Below, in pieces: positions 18,643 to 30,520 of a stretch of 64,000 nt of DNA. The stretch's first letter is position 1; every line of letters starts with the position of its first letter. The notes beneath the pieces were generated by a model. The model saw only the letters and a list, made by a program, of their open reading frames with translations, was not told the DNA's origin and ran no database searches. The DNA is from Brachyspira hyodysenteriae ATCC 27164 (GTDB lineage: Bacteria; Spirochaetota; Brachyspiria; Brachyspirales; Brachyspiraceae), in the NCBI RefSeq assembly GCF_001676785.2, contig NZ_CP015910.2, positions 2,728,001-2,792,000 of the forward strand, written 5' to 3'. Both the position numbers and the translations under genes were made by a program.

Positions 18643-19095
18643 TTAAAATGTTTGCATCAACTCTAATATTATACCATCAGGATCTTTGAAATATAAAGCC
18701 TTACTCTTTGAAAATCCGTAAGAAGTAAAATCGAATTCCTGAGGCGATGATAAGCATTCTACATTATTATCAATTAAATGTTTATATACTTTTTCTATAT
18801 TATCTACTCTGAAGCATATTTCAGACGTAGAAATTTTATTTAATTTAGATTCATCTTTTATAGTTTCAGGACTTATAAATTGCAATAATTCTATAGGAGG
18901 AGCTATTATATTATCGCTGCCGTTAAGATAAGCAATTTTTACTTTGCAGTCATTCATTGCAAAAAGAGCATCTGTTTCTTCGCCTTCCATTAAAGCCTCT
19001 CCTATTAATGTTAAGCCTAAAACATCTCTGTAAAAATTAATAGATCTTTCCATATCGCTTACTGTAAGACCTATATGCATTACTTCCTTTAACAT
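18643..19095 (-). CDS. VOC-family (glyoxalase I-like) protein
   Basis: 150 residues forming two βαβββ modules: MHIGLTVSDMERSINFYRDVLGL at the start and EICFRVDNIEKVYKHLIDNNVECL…ALYFKDPDGIILELMQ at the end. Metal-ligand candidates are His9 and the C-terminal Glu in ILELMQ. It could be lactoylglutathione lyase-like or another VOC metalloenzyme; the substrate cannot be told. A GTG nine bases upstream is in frame but lies inside the TTAGGAGTG ribosome binding site, so the ATG at 19095 is the start. Confidence 0.87.
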   Translation of the reverse strand: MLKEVMHIGLTVSDMERSINFYRDVLGLTLIGEALMEGEETDALFAMNDCKVKIAYLNGSDNIIAPPIELLQFISPETIKDESKLNKISTSEICFRVDNIEKVYKHLIDNNVECLSSPQEFDFTSYGFSKSKALYFKDPDGIILELMQTF

Positions 19096-19181
19096 AAAAT
19101 TCACTCCTAATAAAATTTTATCAATATAATTCTAACAAAAAATAAAATAATATGAAATATATTTAATAAAATTAAATTTTA

Positions 19182-19271
19182 TTAACGCACGGTGAATGAA
19201 TTATCATATATAAATTTAAATCATATTTTTAAATTAATCTATATTTAAAGTTCTGCTATGCGTGCGGTGTA
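19182..19271. repeat. Core copy of dispersed intergenic element (copy C)
   Basis: Starts with AACGCACGGTG and ends with GCTATGCGTGCGG about 75 bp later, with AAATTTAAAT in the middle. It is the reverse orientation of the cores at 23878-23960 and 30218-30302. The flanking GC boxes seen in those two copies are absent. It lies between the divergent VOC and yebC genes in a 300-bp spacer. Confidence 0.75.
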
Positions 19272-19314
19272 TAAGAATATAAATATGATAATCAATCAAA
19301 ATATACATTATAAG

Positions 19315-19343
19315 TTGACAATAGTTGTATTTTGATATATAAT
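19315..19343 (+). promoter_or_regulatory. Promoter for yebC
   Basis: Consensus TTGACA (19315-19320), 17-bp spacer, TATAAT (19338-19343), 52 bp before the start codon. Confidence 0.9.
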
Positions 19344-19395
19344 TATGGCGAATAAATAATCTATAAATAAAAAATCTAATAAACAGAGGTGTAAT

Positions 19396-20139
19396 ATGTC
19401 AGGACACTCCAAGTGGGCTAGTATTAAACATAAAAAAGCCGCAAATGACTCAAAAAAAGGTAAAATTTGGTCAAAAATAGCAAAAGAAATAACAATCGCA
19501 GTAAAAGAAGGCGGAAGCCCAGACCCAGACCAGAATGCAAGATTAAGAATGGTTATAGTAAAAGCTAAAGGTACTAACATGCCTAATGATAATATAGACA
19601 GAGCTATAAAAAGAGGTGCTGGAGCAGGCGAAGGTGCTAATATCGAAGAAATGTCTTATGAAGGTTATGCTCCAGGCGGAGTTGCTATCATTGTAGACGT
19701 TGCTACAGATAATAAAAATAGAACTGCTGCTGAAATAAGATCTATATTCAGTAAAAACGGCGGAAACTTGGCAGAAAACGGTGCAGTTTCTTGGCAGTTT
19801 AAGAAAAAAGCTGTTGTAATGATACCTGCTGCTGGAAATACTGAAGAAAGTTTAATGGATATAGTACTTGATGCCGGCGCTGAAGATATAGAACAAGATG
19901 AAGAAGTATTTACTATCACTGGACCTATGGAAACTTTATCATCTATAGTTGATGCTTTAAAAGCTAAAGGTATAGAACCTGAAAGTGCTGAAATTGTACG
20001 CGTTGCTGATAATACTATGACTATAGCTGAAAATGATGCTAAAAAAGTTATGAAAATCATAGGTTTATTTGAAGACCATGATGATGTTTCTGCTGTAGCT
20101 ACTAACTTAGAAATCACTGATAACTTAATAGAAGAATAA
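19396..20139 (+). CDS. yebC: YebC/PmpR family regulatory protein
   Basis: 247 residues, full length for the family. It begins MSGHSKWASIKHKKAANDSKKGKIWSK, the family signature, followed by GGSPDPDQNARLR, DNIDRAIKRGAG and YEGYAPGGVAIIV. YebC proteins are cytoplasmic and are described both as DNA-binding transcription regulators and as translation factors acting on proline stretches. GAGGTG precedes the ATG. ruvC follows 42 bp later, the classic yebC-ruvC neighbourhood. Confidence 0.96.
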   Translation: MSGHSKWASIKHKKAANDSKKGKIWSKIAKEITIAVKEGGSPDPDQNARLRMVIVKAKGTNMPNDNIDRAIKRGAGAGEGANIEEMSYEGYAPGGVAIIVDVATDNKNRTAAEIRSIFSKNGGNLAENGAVSWQFKKKAVVMIPAAGNTEESLMDIVLDAGAEDIEQDEEVFTITGPMETLSSIVDALKAKGIEPESAEIVRVADNTMTIAENDAKKVMKIIGLFEDHDDVSAVATNLEITDNLIEE

Positions 20140-22700: not shown

Positions 22701-23693
22701 ATGGCTGTTTTAGTATGCGGAGGAGCCGGATATATAGGCTCACATGTAGTTAATGAACTTTTAAAACAGAATATAGAAACTGTTATAATAGATTCATTAG
22801 AATATGGGCATAAAGATGCTATTAAAGACTGCAAGAATTTTTATCAGGGAAATATAGGAGACAGTGATTTACTTGATAAAATTTTTAAAAGTCATGATAT
22901 TGATTCTGTAATGCATTTATGTGCTTATATAGAAGTAGGAGAAAGTGTACAAAATCCTGCTAAATATTATCATAACAATGTATCTAATTCTATTAATCTT
23001 CTTAATGCAATGCTTAAAGCAAAAGTAAAGAATTTTATATTTTCTTCTACAGCTGCAGTTTATGGAGAACCAGAAGCTATACCATTAAAAGAGGATTGCA
23101 GAAAAGAACCTACTAATCCTTATGGAGATAGTAAATTAGCATTAGAAAAAATACTTTCTTGGTATACTAAAGCTTATGATTTTAATTATGTGGCTTTAAG
23201 ATATTTTAATGCTTCAGGTGCTCACCCAGACGGACATATTGGTGAAGATCATAAACCTGAATCACATTTGATACCATTAATACTTCAAGTACCGCTTGGA
23301 AAAAGAGAATCCATAAAAATATTCGGTGATGACTACCCTACTCCTGATGGAACTTGTTTAAGAGATTATATACATGTTTGCGATTTGGCTTTAGCACATA
23401 TTGCAGCTATGAATTACTTAAAGAAAGGCGGAAAAAGTGTTGCTTGTAATTTGGGTAATGGAAACGGATTTAGTGTAAAAGAAGTTATTGAAGTAGCTAG
23501 AAAAGTAACAGGACATCCTATACCTGCAGAAGTTTGTCCTAGAAGAGCCGGAGATTCATCAGAGCTTATTGCAAGCAGTGAGAGAGCGAAAGAAGTTTTA
23601 GGCTGGACTCCTACTATAGACTCATTAGAAACTATAGTACAAACTGCTTGGAATTGGCATAAAAATCATCCTAACGGATATAATGACAGATAA
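22701..23693 (+). CDS. galE: UDP-glucose 4-epimerase
   Basis: 330 residues, extended short-chain dehydrogenase fold. The NAD-binding GGAGYIGSH is at 7-15 and the catalytic triad is Ser116/Thr117, Tyr141 and Lys145 (NPYGDSKLALEK). LRYFNASGAHPDG and the PRRAGDSSELIAS stretch near 280 are typical GalE. It interconverts UDP-glucose and UDP-galactose for glycan synthesis. It has TTGGAG upstream, its own promoter and its own terminator, so it is monocistronic. Confidence 0.94.
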   Translation: MAVLVCGGAGYIGSHVVNELLKQNIETVIIDSLEYGHKDAIKDCKNFYQGNIGDSDLLDKIFKSHDIDSVMHLCAYIEVGESVQNPAKYYHNNVSNSINLLNAMLKAKVKNFIFSSTAAVYGEPEAIPLKEDCRKEPTNPYGDSKLALEKILSWYTKAYDFNYVALRYFNASGAHPDGHIGEDHKPESHLIPLILQVPLGKRESIKIFGDDYPTPDGTCLRDYIHVCDLALAHIAAMNYLKKGGKSVACNLGNGNGFSVKEVIEVARKVTGHPIPAEVCPRRAGDSSELIASSERAKEVLGWTPTIDSLETIVQTAWNWHKNHPNGYNDR

Positions 23694-23718: not shown

Positions 23719-23746
23719 AAAGGGGCTTAAATTAAGTCCCTTTTTT
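23719..23746 (+). terminator. Terminator of galE
   Basis: AAAGGGGCTTAA / TTAAGTCCCTTT stem with one G·U pair and a T run. Confidence 0.85.
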
Positions 23747-23764
23747 ATAGCTTTATTCTAATTT

Positions 23765-24073
23765 CCCACCCTCTATGCTTTTCAATTAATTTATAAAATT
23801 TTTGTTTTTATTTCTTTAAGGCTATAATTAAAAAAACATGCCCGCCCTAGATTATTTAAAAATACAGATTTACAAATACGCACGTTTAGCAATTCTAAAT
23901 ATATAAATTAATTAATCATTCAAATTTAAATTATATAATAAAATCTACTCACCGTGCGTTTAGATAGCCAAAAATCTAATCAAAAGCTTGGGTGGGTTGT
24001 GCTTTTTTGTGTTAGTTAACAAAATAAAGAATATAAATATGTGAAATAAAGGCAATAAATATATAGGGCGGGG
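23765..24073. repeat. Symmetrical intergenic element of about 310 bp (copy A)
   Basis: Fills the 450-bp spacer between convergent galE and jag. Order: CCCACCC (23765), about 69 AT-rich bp, CCCGCCC (23841), about 30 bp, an 83-bp core from ACGCACG (23878) to ACCGTGCGTT (ends 23960), about 30 bp, GGGTGGG (23990), about 69 bp, GGGCGGGG (24066). The left half thus mirrors the right half. The same layout with the same spacings is found at 30103-30413. The outer spacers are also similar in the same orientation: TTTTCAATTAATTTATAAA in A, TTTTCAATCAATTTATAAA in B. No reading frame or promoter is evident. Confidence 0.85.
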
Positions 24074-24093
24074 AATTAGAATAAAATTTTAAT

Positions 24094-24125
24094 ATATAAA
24101 AAAAGGAGGCTTAAAAAGCCCCCTT
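24094..24125 (-). terminator. Terminator of the rpmH-jag cluster
   Basis: Minus-strand stem AAGGGGGCTT / AAGCCTCCTT with a T run, 22 bp past the jag stop codon. Confidence 0.85.
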
Positions 24126-24146: not shown

Positions 24147-24851
24147 TTATCTGTTTCTATAATATGATTTATTATAACCGCCTCTGTCATTATATCTTTT
24201 ATTGTTGTAACCGCCTTTTCTTTTTGAATATACTTTTACACTTCTGTATGGCGGTTCACCATCACTCTTAGTTTCAACATCATTATCATTTTGAAGTTCT
24301 AAGTGTATTATTCTTCTTTCATATGGCGACATAGGATCTAGAGCTACAACTCTTCTAGTCTTTTTAGCTTGCTGAGCAGCCTGACGAGCAATATGCTTTA
24401 AAGTTTCTTCGCGTCTTTCTCTGTATCCATCAACATCTAATATAATATGCCTTTCAGTATCATCATTGAATTTTTTAGAAGCTATCAATGAAATAATAAA
24501 CTGTAAAGCTTCCAAAGTAGCACCTTTTTTACCTATTAAAACACCAGAGTCCTCTGTAGAAATATTAATATAAATTCTTTTTTCACTTTCTTCTTTAGCA
24601 GTAACCTCAGCATCAACGCCCATATATTTTAAAATATTAGATACTATAGATTGAAATTCACCTAAATTTGTAGAAATTTCCTCATAATAAACTCTTATAA
24701 TAGTAGGAGATTCTTCTCCAAAACCTAACAATGTTCGTTTACCCTTATCTATTACCTCAATTCTAACCTGATCTTCCGTAAGATTAAGTTCCTCCAGTGC
24801 CTTACTAACGGCTTCCTTTTCTGATTTACCACTAAACTCTTTTACTAACAT
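24147..24851 (-). CDS. jag: Jag/KhpB RNA-binding protein (Jag-N, KH, R3H)
   Basis: 234 residues. Jag-N domain at 1-55 (VKEFSGKSEKEAVSKALEE…LLGFGEE). The KH domain has VLIGKKGATLEALQFII, and the R3H domain about 140-205 has LDPMSPYERRIIHLELQ. A Gly/Tyr/Arg/Asn-rich tail (KGGYNNKRYND…) is an extra, probably RNA-binding, extension. The family links cell-envelope growth with RNA binding and always travels with yidC. GGAGG lies before the ATG. It follows yidC by 64 bp. Confidence 0.94.
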   Translation of the reverse strand: MLVKEFSGKSEKEAVSKALEELNLTEDQVRIEVIDKGKRTLLGFGEESPTIIRVYYEEISTNLGEFQSIVSNILKYMGVDAEVTAKEESEKRIYINISTEDSGVLIGKKGATLEALQFIISLIASKKFNDDTERHIILDVDGYRERREETLKHIARQAAQQAKKTRRVVALDPMSPYERRIIHLELQNDNDVETKSDGEPPYRSVKVYSKRKGGYNNKRYNDRGGYNKSYYRNR

Positions 24852-24915: not shown

Positions 24916-26796
24916 TTATCTCTTTTTTCTTTTTTTCTTTTTACCTATCTGTTTTGTTTCTTCTTCCTCAACTATTTCATTAGTATTAGATTTATCTATC
25001 TTTGAAGTTATAAACTGCTGAGCAACCCCAAATATATTCTGTGCTGTCCAATATAAAGCAAGTCCGCTTGCAAAGTTATAGAACATAAGAAGCATCATAA
25101 GCGGGAAAATAGTAGTCATCATCTTCATCTGTGCAGCTGCACTAGAATTTCCTGCTGAAGACGAAGGCTGCAATTTCATACTTAAATAACTAGTCAATGC
25201 CATCACTATAGGGAATAAGTTAAAATTAAAACCTCCTAATATAGGTATGCCTGCCGGAAATACAAATAATTTATCAGGAGAAGAAAGGTCTGTTATCCAT
25301 AAGAATGGAGTATTCCTTAATTCTACCATAGACTGCATAAGATAGAAAAATGCTATTAACAATGGAAATGGCAATAACATAGGAAGACATCCGCCTAAAG
25401 GATTAATCTTCTCTTTTTTATAAATAGCCATTATCTCAGCATTTAATTTATCAGGATTATCTTTATATTGTTCTCTTATGCGCTCTATTTTAGGATTAAC
25501 CAATTGCATCTTTTTCATAGATTTATAAGAAGCATGATTGAGCGGAAAAGTTACAAGCTTAAATAAGAATGTAAACAACAATATAGCCCATGCATAATTC
25601 TTTGTAATATTATACAGAGCATTAAGAATAACATCTAATATATAAGTTAAAGGTCTTAAATTAAGTCCTAAGAAAGATTCTTGGAATATAGATTCATAAG
25701 ATTCTTCTAAATAATACTTAGAAAAAGTTCTTCTTACTTTAGGTCCCATAAATACTGAATAATTATCAGTAATAGAAGAACCGCTTTTAATAGTATGTTT
25801 AGACATTAAATTTGCTACATGAAAATCATTTCTATATTCATTAGTTGAAGGCTTAGAAAAAGTCATAGTTTCAAAAACAGTATTATTAGATTGTGCAGGA
25901 GAAGAAATAATAGCAAAATATCTATTATTCAAAGCTACCCATTTATCCTCACCTTCATATATAGCATATCTCATCTGATTAGTTTTGATTCCCTTTGAAG
26001 AATTACCAAATCCAAATAATCTTGAGAAAATATTATCTTTTACTATATCTCCTGTTAATAATATTTTAGATTTACCATTTCCTTTTATCAAATATTGTGC
26101 TTTAGTAGCATCTTCTCTTATGGCATTTTTATCTGTTCTGTATGGACCTATACCTGTAGCGAGAAAATATGAATAAAATAGAGAAAGATCTTTTTCACCT
26201 ACATTTTCTATATTAACAGAATTTTTTAACTGATATGGATCTTCACCAAAAGTAAAAGTTTTAGTTATTTTAACTTCTGTATTATCAATAATAGCATTAG
26301 CAGAATATGAAACTTTATCGCCGCTTTCTTCTATTAATTGATAATCCAAATTTTCAGGTATTGCTATAGAATTTGATAGGTTTTGAAAAGTTACAGTAAA
26401 AGGATAAATACCTTCATAAACCTGCTCCACCATATCAATAATTTCATTAGTAGCATCTGCCCCTAAATCCTGCGGATAATAATTTTTTAATTTATATGAA
26501 TACAAAGAACCATTTTTAAAAGTTGCTATAACATACTCATTTTCAAGTATTTTTTCATTATCATTTATTACAGCATTTGTATTTTCTATCTTTTCTATTT
26601 TTTGCATTTGAGCAGTATTCAATAGAATGTTTTCAGAAGTTATATTATTATTATTATTATTACTGACAGCATTTGAATTTGTACTTACATTAGAATTATA
26701 AACAGGCTTCATTGTTTTTGCCTGATAGAACATGTATAGAAACATTATTATAGCGGAAAGTCCAATAGCTATAACCATTCTTTTATTATTGCTCAT
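24916..26796 (-). CDS. yidC: Membrane protein insertase YidC
   Basis: 626 residues, the Gram-negative form. N-terminal signal-anchor helix (about 8-24), a poly-Asn linker, a large periplasmic β-domain (about 60-370), then the conserved five-helix insertase core with YAWAILLFTFLFKLVTFPL, the cytoplasmic hairpin QLVNPKIERIREQYKDNPDKL and NPLGGCLPMLLPFPLL. The tail is basic (GKKKKRKKR), as in proteins that contact the ribosome. It inserts inner-membrane proteins alone or with Sec. It sits in the rpmH-rnpA-yidD-yidC-jag order, 89 bp after yidD. Confidence 0.96.
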   Translation of the reverse strand: MSNNKRMVIAIGLSAIIMFLYMFYQAKTMKPVYNSNVSTNSNAVSNNNNNNITSENILLNTAQMQKIEKIENTNAVINDNEKILENEYVIATFKNGSLYSYKLKNYYPQDLGADATNEIIDMVEQVYEGIYPFTVTFQNLSNSIAIPENLDYQLIEESGDKVSYSANAIIDNTEVKITKTFTFGEDPYQLKNSVNIENVGEKDLSLFYSYFLATGIGPYRTDKNAIREDATKAQYLIKGNGKSKILLTGDIVKDNIFSRLFGFGNSSKGIKTNQMRYAIYEGEDKWVALNNRYFAIISSPAQSNNTVFETMTFSKPSTNEYRNDFHVANLMSKHTIKSGSSITDNYSVFMGPKVRRTFSKYYLEESYESIFQESFLGLNLRPLTYILDVILNALYNITKNYAWAILLFTFLFKLVTFPLNHASYKSMKKMQLVNPKIERIREQYKDNPDKLNAEIMAIYKKEKINPLGGCLPMLLPFPLLIAFFYLMQSMVELRNTPFLWITDLSSPDKLFVFPAGIPILGGFNFNLFPIVMALTSYLSMKLQPSSSAGNSSAAAQMKMMTTIFPLMMLLMFYNFASGLALYWTAQNIFGVAQQFITSKIDKSNTNEIVEEEETKQIGKKKKRKKR

Positions 26797-26885
26797 AAAA
26801 TGTTAAAGCTCCTTAAATCAATAATATACAAACAAGAATTCTTTAAGCAATTAAAAAAGGAAGATGGTCTAACATATAAAAAATA

Positions 26886-27095
26886 CTATGGCACAGGATC
26901 ATATATTTTTTTTGCTAGGGGGTTACATCTCAGTACTCTGGCAATTGCAAGAAAACTACCCTTTATAGCTCCGTATTTAATGACAGCCTGTTTAGCATAT
27001 TCAGAACATGAAGGTATATATCTGCAGGAAGGTCTTAAATAAGGTGAAATAGCTTTCTGATACAAAAAAATCAAAAACAAAAGAATATTTTTCAT
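26886..27095 (-). CDS. yidD: Membrane protein insertion efficiency factor YidD
   Basis: 69 residues. FLYQKAISPYLRPSCRYIPSCSEYAKQAVIKYG and RVLRCNPL are the YidD signature with its three conserved Cys. It is a small amphipathic, membrane-associated helper of YidC. The start codon overlaps the rnpA stop (ATGA), so the two are translationally coupled. Confidence 0.95.
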   Translation of the reverse strand: MKNILLFLIFLYQKAISPYLRPSCRYIPSCSEYAKQAVIKYGAIKGSFLAIARVLRCNPLAKKIYDPVP

Positions 27096-27472
27096 ATATA
27101 CAAAACCTTCTGAAATAATTTTAATAAGTCTCTTTTATAATCATCAAATGAAGGCAGCTTATAACTATCAAACCTATTAACTATAATAAAATAATCATAT
27201 CCAGTAGGAATTTTATCTTTTTGAGTTCTATATATTTCTCTAACTATCCTCTTAGCTCTATTTCTGCCCACAGAATTAGTTTTGTTTCTTTTTATAGTTA
27301 CAGCAAACCTAGAATATGAGCGATTATTTTTTAATAAGAGCACAGTGTATCTAGAATTATAAATTCTTTTAACACTGCTGCTATTATTAAAGAATGCTGA
27401 TATATCGCTTCTGTGCTTTAACCGCTCTTTACTATATAATTTCAATGAGTATTCCCTGTAACAGTTTTCCAT
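27092..27472 (-). CDS. rnpA: Ribonuclease P protein component
   Basis: 126 residues. YSKERLKHRSDISAFF at the start and the RNR signature NSVGRNRAKRIVREIYR in the centre identify the protein subunit of RNase P, which helps the RNA subunit process tRNA 5' ends. It begins 28 bp after rpmH on the same transcript and overlaps yidD by 4 bp. Confidence 0.95.
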   Translation of the reverse strand: MENCYREYSLKLYSKERLKHRSDISAFFNNSSSVKRIYNSRYTVLLLKNNRSYSRFAVTIKRNKTNSVGRNRAKRIVREIYRTQKDKIPTGYDYFIIVNRFDSYKLPSFDDYKRDLLKLFQKVLYI

Positions 27473-29988: not shown

Positions 29989-30102
29989 TAATATTATTAA
30001 ATTAGACTAATAATTCAAAACGAATTCATATTATTAATATGCAATAATTTAAACAAATATTAGGTAAGCTGTGAAATTTAAGTTTTAAAACTTATTTTCA
30101 CT

Positions 30103-30413
30103 CCCCGCCCCTTTTATTTTTCAATCAATTTATAAATATACAATTTCATATTTCATCATTATCTACTTAGAAAATATAACACCCACCCAAAATTTTTTTT
30201 AATTAAGCATATTAATCAACGCACGCTAAGCAAAATTATAAATATTAATAACATTGGAATTCAAATTTAAATATATTAAAAAAATGCCGTCCACCGTGCG
30301 TTAATTAAATTATAAATTTTATATTCTCTAGGGCGGGCATGCTTTTTCTTAAACAAAATACTAAATATAATGAAATAATAAATACTATAAAAATAAAAAA
30401 ACAAAAGGGCGGG
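30103..30413. repeat. Symmetrical intergenic element of about 310 bp (copy B)
   Basis: Lies in the 530-bp spacer between the convergent kinase and anti-sigma genes. Order: CCCCGCCCC (30103), 70 bp, CCCACCC (30182), 30 bp, an 85-bp core from AACGCACG (30218) to ACCGTGCGTT (ends 30302), 28 bp, GGGCGGG (30331), 69 bp, GGGCGGG (30407). It matches copy A box by box and spacer by spacer. The rest of the spacer is AT-rich with nothing recognised. Confidence 0.85.
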
Positions 30414-30520
30414 AAATGAAAATAAAATAACAAAAAATATAGTTTTAAATACTAAAAATATAAATATATAACCATATAATAAATAATTGAATGCAAACAA
30501 TTTTTATTAGAAATAATAAA

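Follow-up and report, generated by a model that had tools for sequence, protein, structure and literature searches.

Few bacteria are known to organize an origin domain through dispersed sites, and in each case short motifs are used. The ram motifs of the RacA/ram system are short single palindromes, and the MatP/matS site family, based on a 13-bp terminus site, delimits a single stretch of the chromosome several hundred kb long. In Bacillus subtilis, the ram sites lie densely near the origin and have been called centromere-like, with the RacA protein anchoring and condensing the chromosome (PMC6593407). The NBS and SBS sites of Noc and SlmA number in the tens over the chromosome and are depleted toward the terminus (PMC4726725), and the Ter macrodomain of MatP/matS is cited in PMC6549158. 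In REP/BIME elements, modules of distinct types stand in opposite orientations at regular spacing and form mosaics and tandem arrays between genes (PMC2817692).

Genomes of Brachyspira, a genus of gut spirochaetes, contain ∼100 or more precisely built 310-bp sites that crowd around the replication origin and the binding site of the segregation machinery. The window in which we found them is a stretch of 64,000 nucleotides of the B. hyodysenteriae ATCC 27164 chromosome, and it holds two copies. Copy A spans 23754–24083, as delimited by its boxes and by two half-model matches, a left half of β type on the plus strand (23754–23900, 59.7 bits) and a right half of α type on the minus strand (23938–24083, 73.2 bits). 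The initial annotation had described four CCC(A/G)CCC-type boxes around an ACGCACG…CGTGCGT core, and a box search located all of them: the outer CCCACCC (23765–23771) and inner CCCGCCC (23841–23847) on the plus strand, followed by the A box ACGCACG (23878–23884, plus), and on the minus strand the A′ box (23953–23959, CGTGCGT as read on plus), the inner box (23990–23996, GGGTGGG on plus) and the outer box (24066–24072, GGGCGGG on plus). Successive boxes are separated by exactly 69, 30, 68, 30, and 69 bp, so that the distances first estimated as about 69 bp from outer to inner box and about 30 bp from inner box to core are exact on both sides. Copy B (30093–30425, from boxes and half model) has the same plan, with boxes starting at 30104, 30182, 30219, 30295, 30331, and 30407 (span 30104–30413), and both of its halves are of α type, a rare homotypic pair. 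The window contains eight CCCRCCC boxes where 0.58 are expected (0 of 100 shuffles reached eight), and all eight fall within copies A and B.

Two genes converge on copy A, galE (UDP-glucose 4-epimerase; 22701–23693, plus strand; TIGR01179, 453 bits) and jag/eloR (24147–24851, minus strand; NF041568, 204 bits). Outside the element, GGGGCTTAAATTAAGTCCC followed by a T run (23722–23740, plus strand), read by eye and absent from the output of a terminator scan of the window, is the probable intrinsic terminator of galE, and the scan itself places an intrinsic-terminator-like site of jag at 24103–24125 on the minus strand, also outside. Close to copy A, at 24916–27472, are genes that we take from their translations to be yidC, yidD, and rnpA, with dnaA not adjoining; the common gene order elsewhere is dnaA-rpmH-rnpA-yidC. 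The box search also returned a lone ACGCACG (19185–19191, plus strand) in the gap 19095–19396. The orthologous place in another Brachyspira genome (L166) holds an element, and the lone box is probably a remnant, left by loss of an element.

The box plan is held across the family. Measured center to center over own and foreign copies, outer and inner boxes (O-I) lie 76–79 bp apart (mode 78), inner and A boxes (I-A) 36.5–37.5 bp, and the two A boxes (A-A′) 73–75 bp (mode 74), while the tail-to-tail spacing of neighboring copies is 40–44 bp and tandem arrays have a period of ∼344 bp. The pattern used to fetch foreign copies left the A-A′ and tail-to-tail spacings unconstrained. Box spacings are constant to ∼1 bp despite diverged AT-rich spacers, so the initial annotation passes its own refutation test of unconserved spacings. 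A different arrangement occurs at G010:C1:2494097–2495563, where half-elements stand in a same-direction array ∼235 bp apart, as opposed to the usual head-to-head plan. Element termini share TTATTCTAATT-like ends.

Each half belongs to one of two types, which a mixture model favors over a single type by ∼1000 BIC units. The α half carries CCCG boxes and ACGCACGGT, and the β half carries CCCA boxes and CCGCACGCAGA. Of 88 pairs of facing halves, 78 are α/β (p = 3e-14), with 22/24 in the own genome, and so are 31 of 34 back-to-back pairs, although these pairs, like the periodicity counts below, come from members of shared ancestry and are not independent trials. The element is a pseudo-palindrome in which two different half-sites face each other, as in the β/α copy A. 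The symmetry ascribed to it by the initial annotation therefore survives as a mirrored plan of boxes and not as a true dyad. Within the AT-rich spacers of both half types, in the own and the foreign sets, TT steps recur at 18–19 and 36–37 bp, a beat absent from control DNA. We looked in the spacers for 10.5-bp AA/TT phasing and did not find it, the period being ∼9/18–19 bp. The I-A (37 bp) and A-A′ (74 bp) spacings are multiples of 18.5, and the O-I (78 bp) and tail-to-tail (42 bp) spacings fit such multiples only roughly. This ∼18.5-bp beat may reflect a repeated protein footprint.

Further copies, whose absence from Brachyspira genomes would have refuted the initial annotation, are numerous. 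As a BLAST query, copy A finds 67 matches in its own 3.04-Mb chromosome, where there are also 22 instances of the exact core ACGCACG-N55-85-CGTGCGT and none of a reversed control pattern. A half-element sequence profile built from 52 halves finds at least 150 halves at no fewer than 99 loci, counts that are lower bounds, covering the best 150 halves per genome. By the same profile search, 24 of 26 Brachyspira genomes contain matches, including the fragmented assembly G003 with a single marginal match, and two (G001 and G019) contain no element. Among 120 genomes from 69 genera of the phylum, Brachyspira is the only genus to match, and the sister genus g2 gives no element match. A pattern scan of named genomes returned, among the matches listed, B. 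hampsonii, B. innocens, B. alvinipulli, B. pilosicoli, and others, together with three loci outside the genus (Streptomyces, an Acidobacteria MAG, and Xanthobacter) that resemble chance hits in genomes of high GC content. The pattern matches CCCGCCCTTATAGTTAAACAAACATTTTT... at G000:C1:2486422–2491435 come from a different repeat family, which has the CCCGCCC start in common. A literature search found the repeat family nowhere described in Brachyspira.

The distribution of the elements along the chromosome is centered on parS. The only chromosomal parS sites of the own genome (G000), each with one mismatch to the consensus, are at 3,037,832 and 3,038,035 (region 3037832–3038050), and the circular mean position of its 99 loci falls within a few kb of them. 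In five species with near-complete chromosomes the mean element position, 0.7–1.5 Mb away from dnaA, lies 7, 62, 21, 51, and 13 kb from parS and within error of it, with a 95% confidence interval of ∼100 kb in four of the five and V-test p values from 1e-2 to 2e-18; the five species share ancestry and so are not fully independent, the values for G004 and G008 use the best-scoring listed copies only, and some chromosome lengths were rounded, that of G009 being rechecked with the true length. G010 shows only weak centering (R = 0.27, p = 0.011). Plotted against origin and terminus, as the initial annotation proposed, the elements crowd at parS, drop steeply in density within ∼400 kb of it, and are rare toward the terminus.

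This position is also that of the replication origin. In the own genome, GC3 skew (third codon position, corrected for gene strand) switches sign at parS; in G009 the switch falls −23 to +16 kb from parS, and in G004 −26 to +23 kb from it. The skew of these three species therefore puts their origin at parS. The dnaA gene lies elsewhere, at 1173287 (∼1.17 Mb) in the own genome, 0.7–1.6 Mb from parS among the Brachyspira genomes compared, and near the pole opposite parS in G009. Skew sampling and parS establish the clustering as origin-centered, in place of a terminus-like reading suggested by dnaA at 1.17 Mb, which had itself replaced a reading as an origin at coordinate 1. Published Brachyspira genome papers assign the origin to dnaA (PMC2897892, PMC2650404), and the elements supply a marker of its position for this genus.

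At the parS locus itself, a compact copy, with an A-A′ core of nearly usual width and GC boxes only ∼15–24 bp from it, lies between the two parS sites in G000, G004, G006, and G008. Inspection of the parS locus in G009, G010, G013, and G015 showed no copy between or beside the sites. A gene that is presumably rsmI-like, judged from its translation, adjoins the parS locus in nine of nine genomes looked at. Seven genomes each have a single TIGR00180 match to the ParB family. The protein is present in both element-free genomes, one of which (G001) also has parS, so ParB-parS does not need the elements.

Locally, the elements are intergenic, and no locus overlaps an open reading frame of at least 90 amino acids by more than 52 bp. 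Placement was scored in 888 kb of the own genome, a sample that favors the parS side and has 53 classifiable loci. Of these, 25 lie between convergent genes, as against 98 of 698 gene pairs overall; divergent gaps are avoided. Among gaps longer than 100 bp, 48/262 within 350 kb of parS contain an element versus 3/117 beyond, so the supply of intergenic space does not account for the density near parS. Of the convergent gaps, 23/44 within 350 kb have an element; beyond 700 kb the figures are 0/8 for convergent gaps and 1/92 for all gaps. Element orientation matches replication direction in 61 of 99 typed halves of the own genome (p = 0.026, on halves that are not independent), and we rejected a KOPS-like polar signal as too weakly indicated.

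Among the explanations that invoke no organizing protein, a transcribed structured RNA or bidirectional terminator is very improbable. Many copies do sit between convergent genes, and the element strands fold better than shuffles (z = −3.4 and −2.9), but inverted boxes must give such folding, the facing box centers do not covary (outer 9/25 matching, inner 5/25), no Rfam match reaches gathering score in the window, galE and jag each have their own terminator-like hairpin outside copy A, and many copies are not between convergent genes. We rejected the hairpin reading through this absence of covariation, and the element is best read as a double-stranded DNA site, neither RNA nor gene. A selfish non-autonomous element of MITE or REP-like kind, inserted or retained with an origin bias, would account for the many intergenic ∼300-bp copies, the inverted halves, the tandem arrays, and the turnover between species (17 syntenic gaps have an element in some other Brachyspira; the own genome has one in ten of these and lacks it in seven). 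It is a poor candidate. Over non-self BLAST matches of at least 99 bp in the own genome, no dispersed copy exceeds 79% identity and most show 67%–73%, whereas the spacers of orthologous elements are ∼81% identical, like flanking intergenic DNA, so the copies dispersed before the species split, which speaks against recent transposition and disfavors the mobile-element branch of the initial annotation. Box spacings are exact despite diverged spacers, the elements center on parS in five species, and distant searches of plasmid and phage collections found no match. Orthologous boxes are 92% identical; outside the searched half the value is 87% (98/113 bases versus 3520/4329 elsewhere, p = 0.18, not significant), and the box G/C positions there are conserved in 88/101 cases versus 525/799 elsewhere (p = 5e-6). 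At L195, compared with L121 (4759–5238), the orthologous elements agree in all boxes and one half, and the other half has a spacer of different type; this exchange of one whole half-spacer suggests conversion between copies.

Three further readings are site-based. In the first of these, a bound protein would block division over unsegregated origin-proximal DNA and release it when only the terminus is at mid-cell. Such nucleoid occlusion is unlikely, though the likeliest of the rivals, since the number of sites and their depletion toward the terminus, with an element in only one of the 92 far gaps, resemble NBS (∼70) and SBS (24–52), which are under-represented in Ter (PMC4726725). However, NBS and SBS are short palindromes over most of the chromosome, element density is steep within ∼400 kb of parS, and the single ParB-family protein per genome leaves no Noc-like paralog by the TIGR00180 model. 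A still less likely reading is that of topological sites of BIME type, at which gyrase or some other topoisomerase would bind so that supercoils are taken up between convergent genes. The convergent enrichment (25/53) agrees with it, as does the alternating, mosaic, tandem-array architecture, which is like that of BIME-2, a gyrase binder (PMC2817692), but none of the eight convergent gaps beyond 700 kb carries an element although supercoiling arises there as well, hairpin covariation is lacking, and promoter avoidance would also yield a convergent bias. We hold it slightly more doubtful again that the elements are datA/DARS-like replication-control sites, either titrating the initiator or acting as origin modules. 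They do center on the skew-defined origin, with one copy between the parS sites in four species, but exact DnaA boxes (TTATCCACA) are not clustered near parS in the stretches read, and no titration locus is known to come near ∼100 loci over 1 Mb.

The reading we prefer, with a probability of roughly 0.6, is that a protein binds multimerically at these sites and that the complexes organize, mark, or anchor the origin domain together with ParB-parS. Anatomy, spacing, copy number, parS/origin centering, intergenic and convergent placement, and restriction to Brachyspira are computed features of the family; from them we infer protein binding, multimerization, and an organizing or positioning role in the origin domain. 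Of the possibilities raised by the initial annotation, the protein-organized site is strongly supported by the centering in five species, the fixed spacings, the lack of hairpin covariation, and the copy between two parS sites in four species, the binder itself being putative. This sequence-specific protein would contact the GC boxes and AT-rich spacers of each ∼150-bp half-site, with several subunits probably occupying an ∼18.5-bp lattice to form a large nucleoprotein complex of fixed geometry. With some 100 or more of these complexes distributed across the ∼1 Mb that surrounds parS and the origin, the origin domain would be marked, compacted, anchored, or segregated jointly with ParB-parS. 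Since seven genomes each gave one ParB-family match, the predicted binder is not a Noc-type paralog by the TIGR00180 model. More tentatively, the family might constitute a distributed, extended centromere, in which a genus-specific protein forms filaments of fixed geometry at 100 or more places over ∼1 Mb round parS, working with ParB-parS in building and moving the origin domain; if so, these filaments on an ∼18.5-bp α/β lattice would be a third layer beside ParABS and SMC. For a spirochaete genus, the elements add a large, regular, origin-centered site system that is physically interleaved with parS, and a single 310-bp DNA would serve as a direct pull-down bait for the putative binder.

Set against described systems, the family looks like an undescribed kind of protein-organized chromosome-positioning site. 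Its boxes bear no likeness to TGTTTCAYRTGAAACA, and the elements contain no TGTTTCACGTGAAACA-like 16-bp palindrome; they center on parS, with one copy between both parS sites in four species, but unlike ParB/parS they are missing from two Brachyspira genomes that have ParB. With REP/BIME they share opposed, distinct modules and tandem arrays. REP units, in contrast, are palindromes that form hairpins, have a GTAG-type head, and are linked to a RAYT transposase, whereas the Brachyspira boxes lack hairpin covariation, keep their spacing over 300 bp, and have an origin-centered distribution; unlike MITEs, the family has no recently dispersed, near-identical copies in the own genome (matches of ≥99 bp at ≤79%). 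Like MatP/matS, the family marks one region, but on the origin side and with a 310-bp site. As with Noc/NBS and SlmA/SBS, the elements number tens or more and are nearly missing toward the terminus; those sites are short single palindromes with a broad distribution, whereas the elements are composite and peaked at parS, and a second ParB-family protein, as Noc would be, was not found in seven Brachyspira genomes (TIGR00180). Like RacA/ram, the elements concentrate around the replication origin, but in place of a short GC-rich inverted repeat the unit, ∼310 bp long, combines six boxes at fixed distances and has halves of two types. By analogy, RacA/ram and Noc/NBS would be the closest working counterparts of the Brachyspira element, which is placed in neither class because its site architecture differs.
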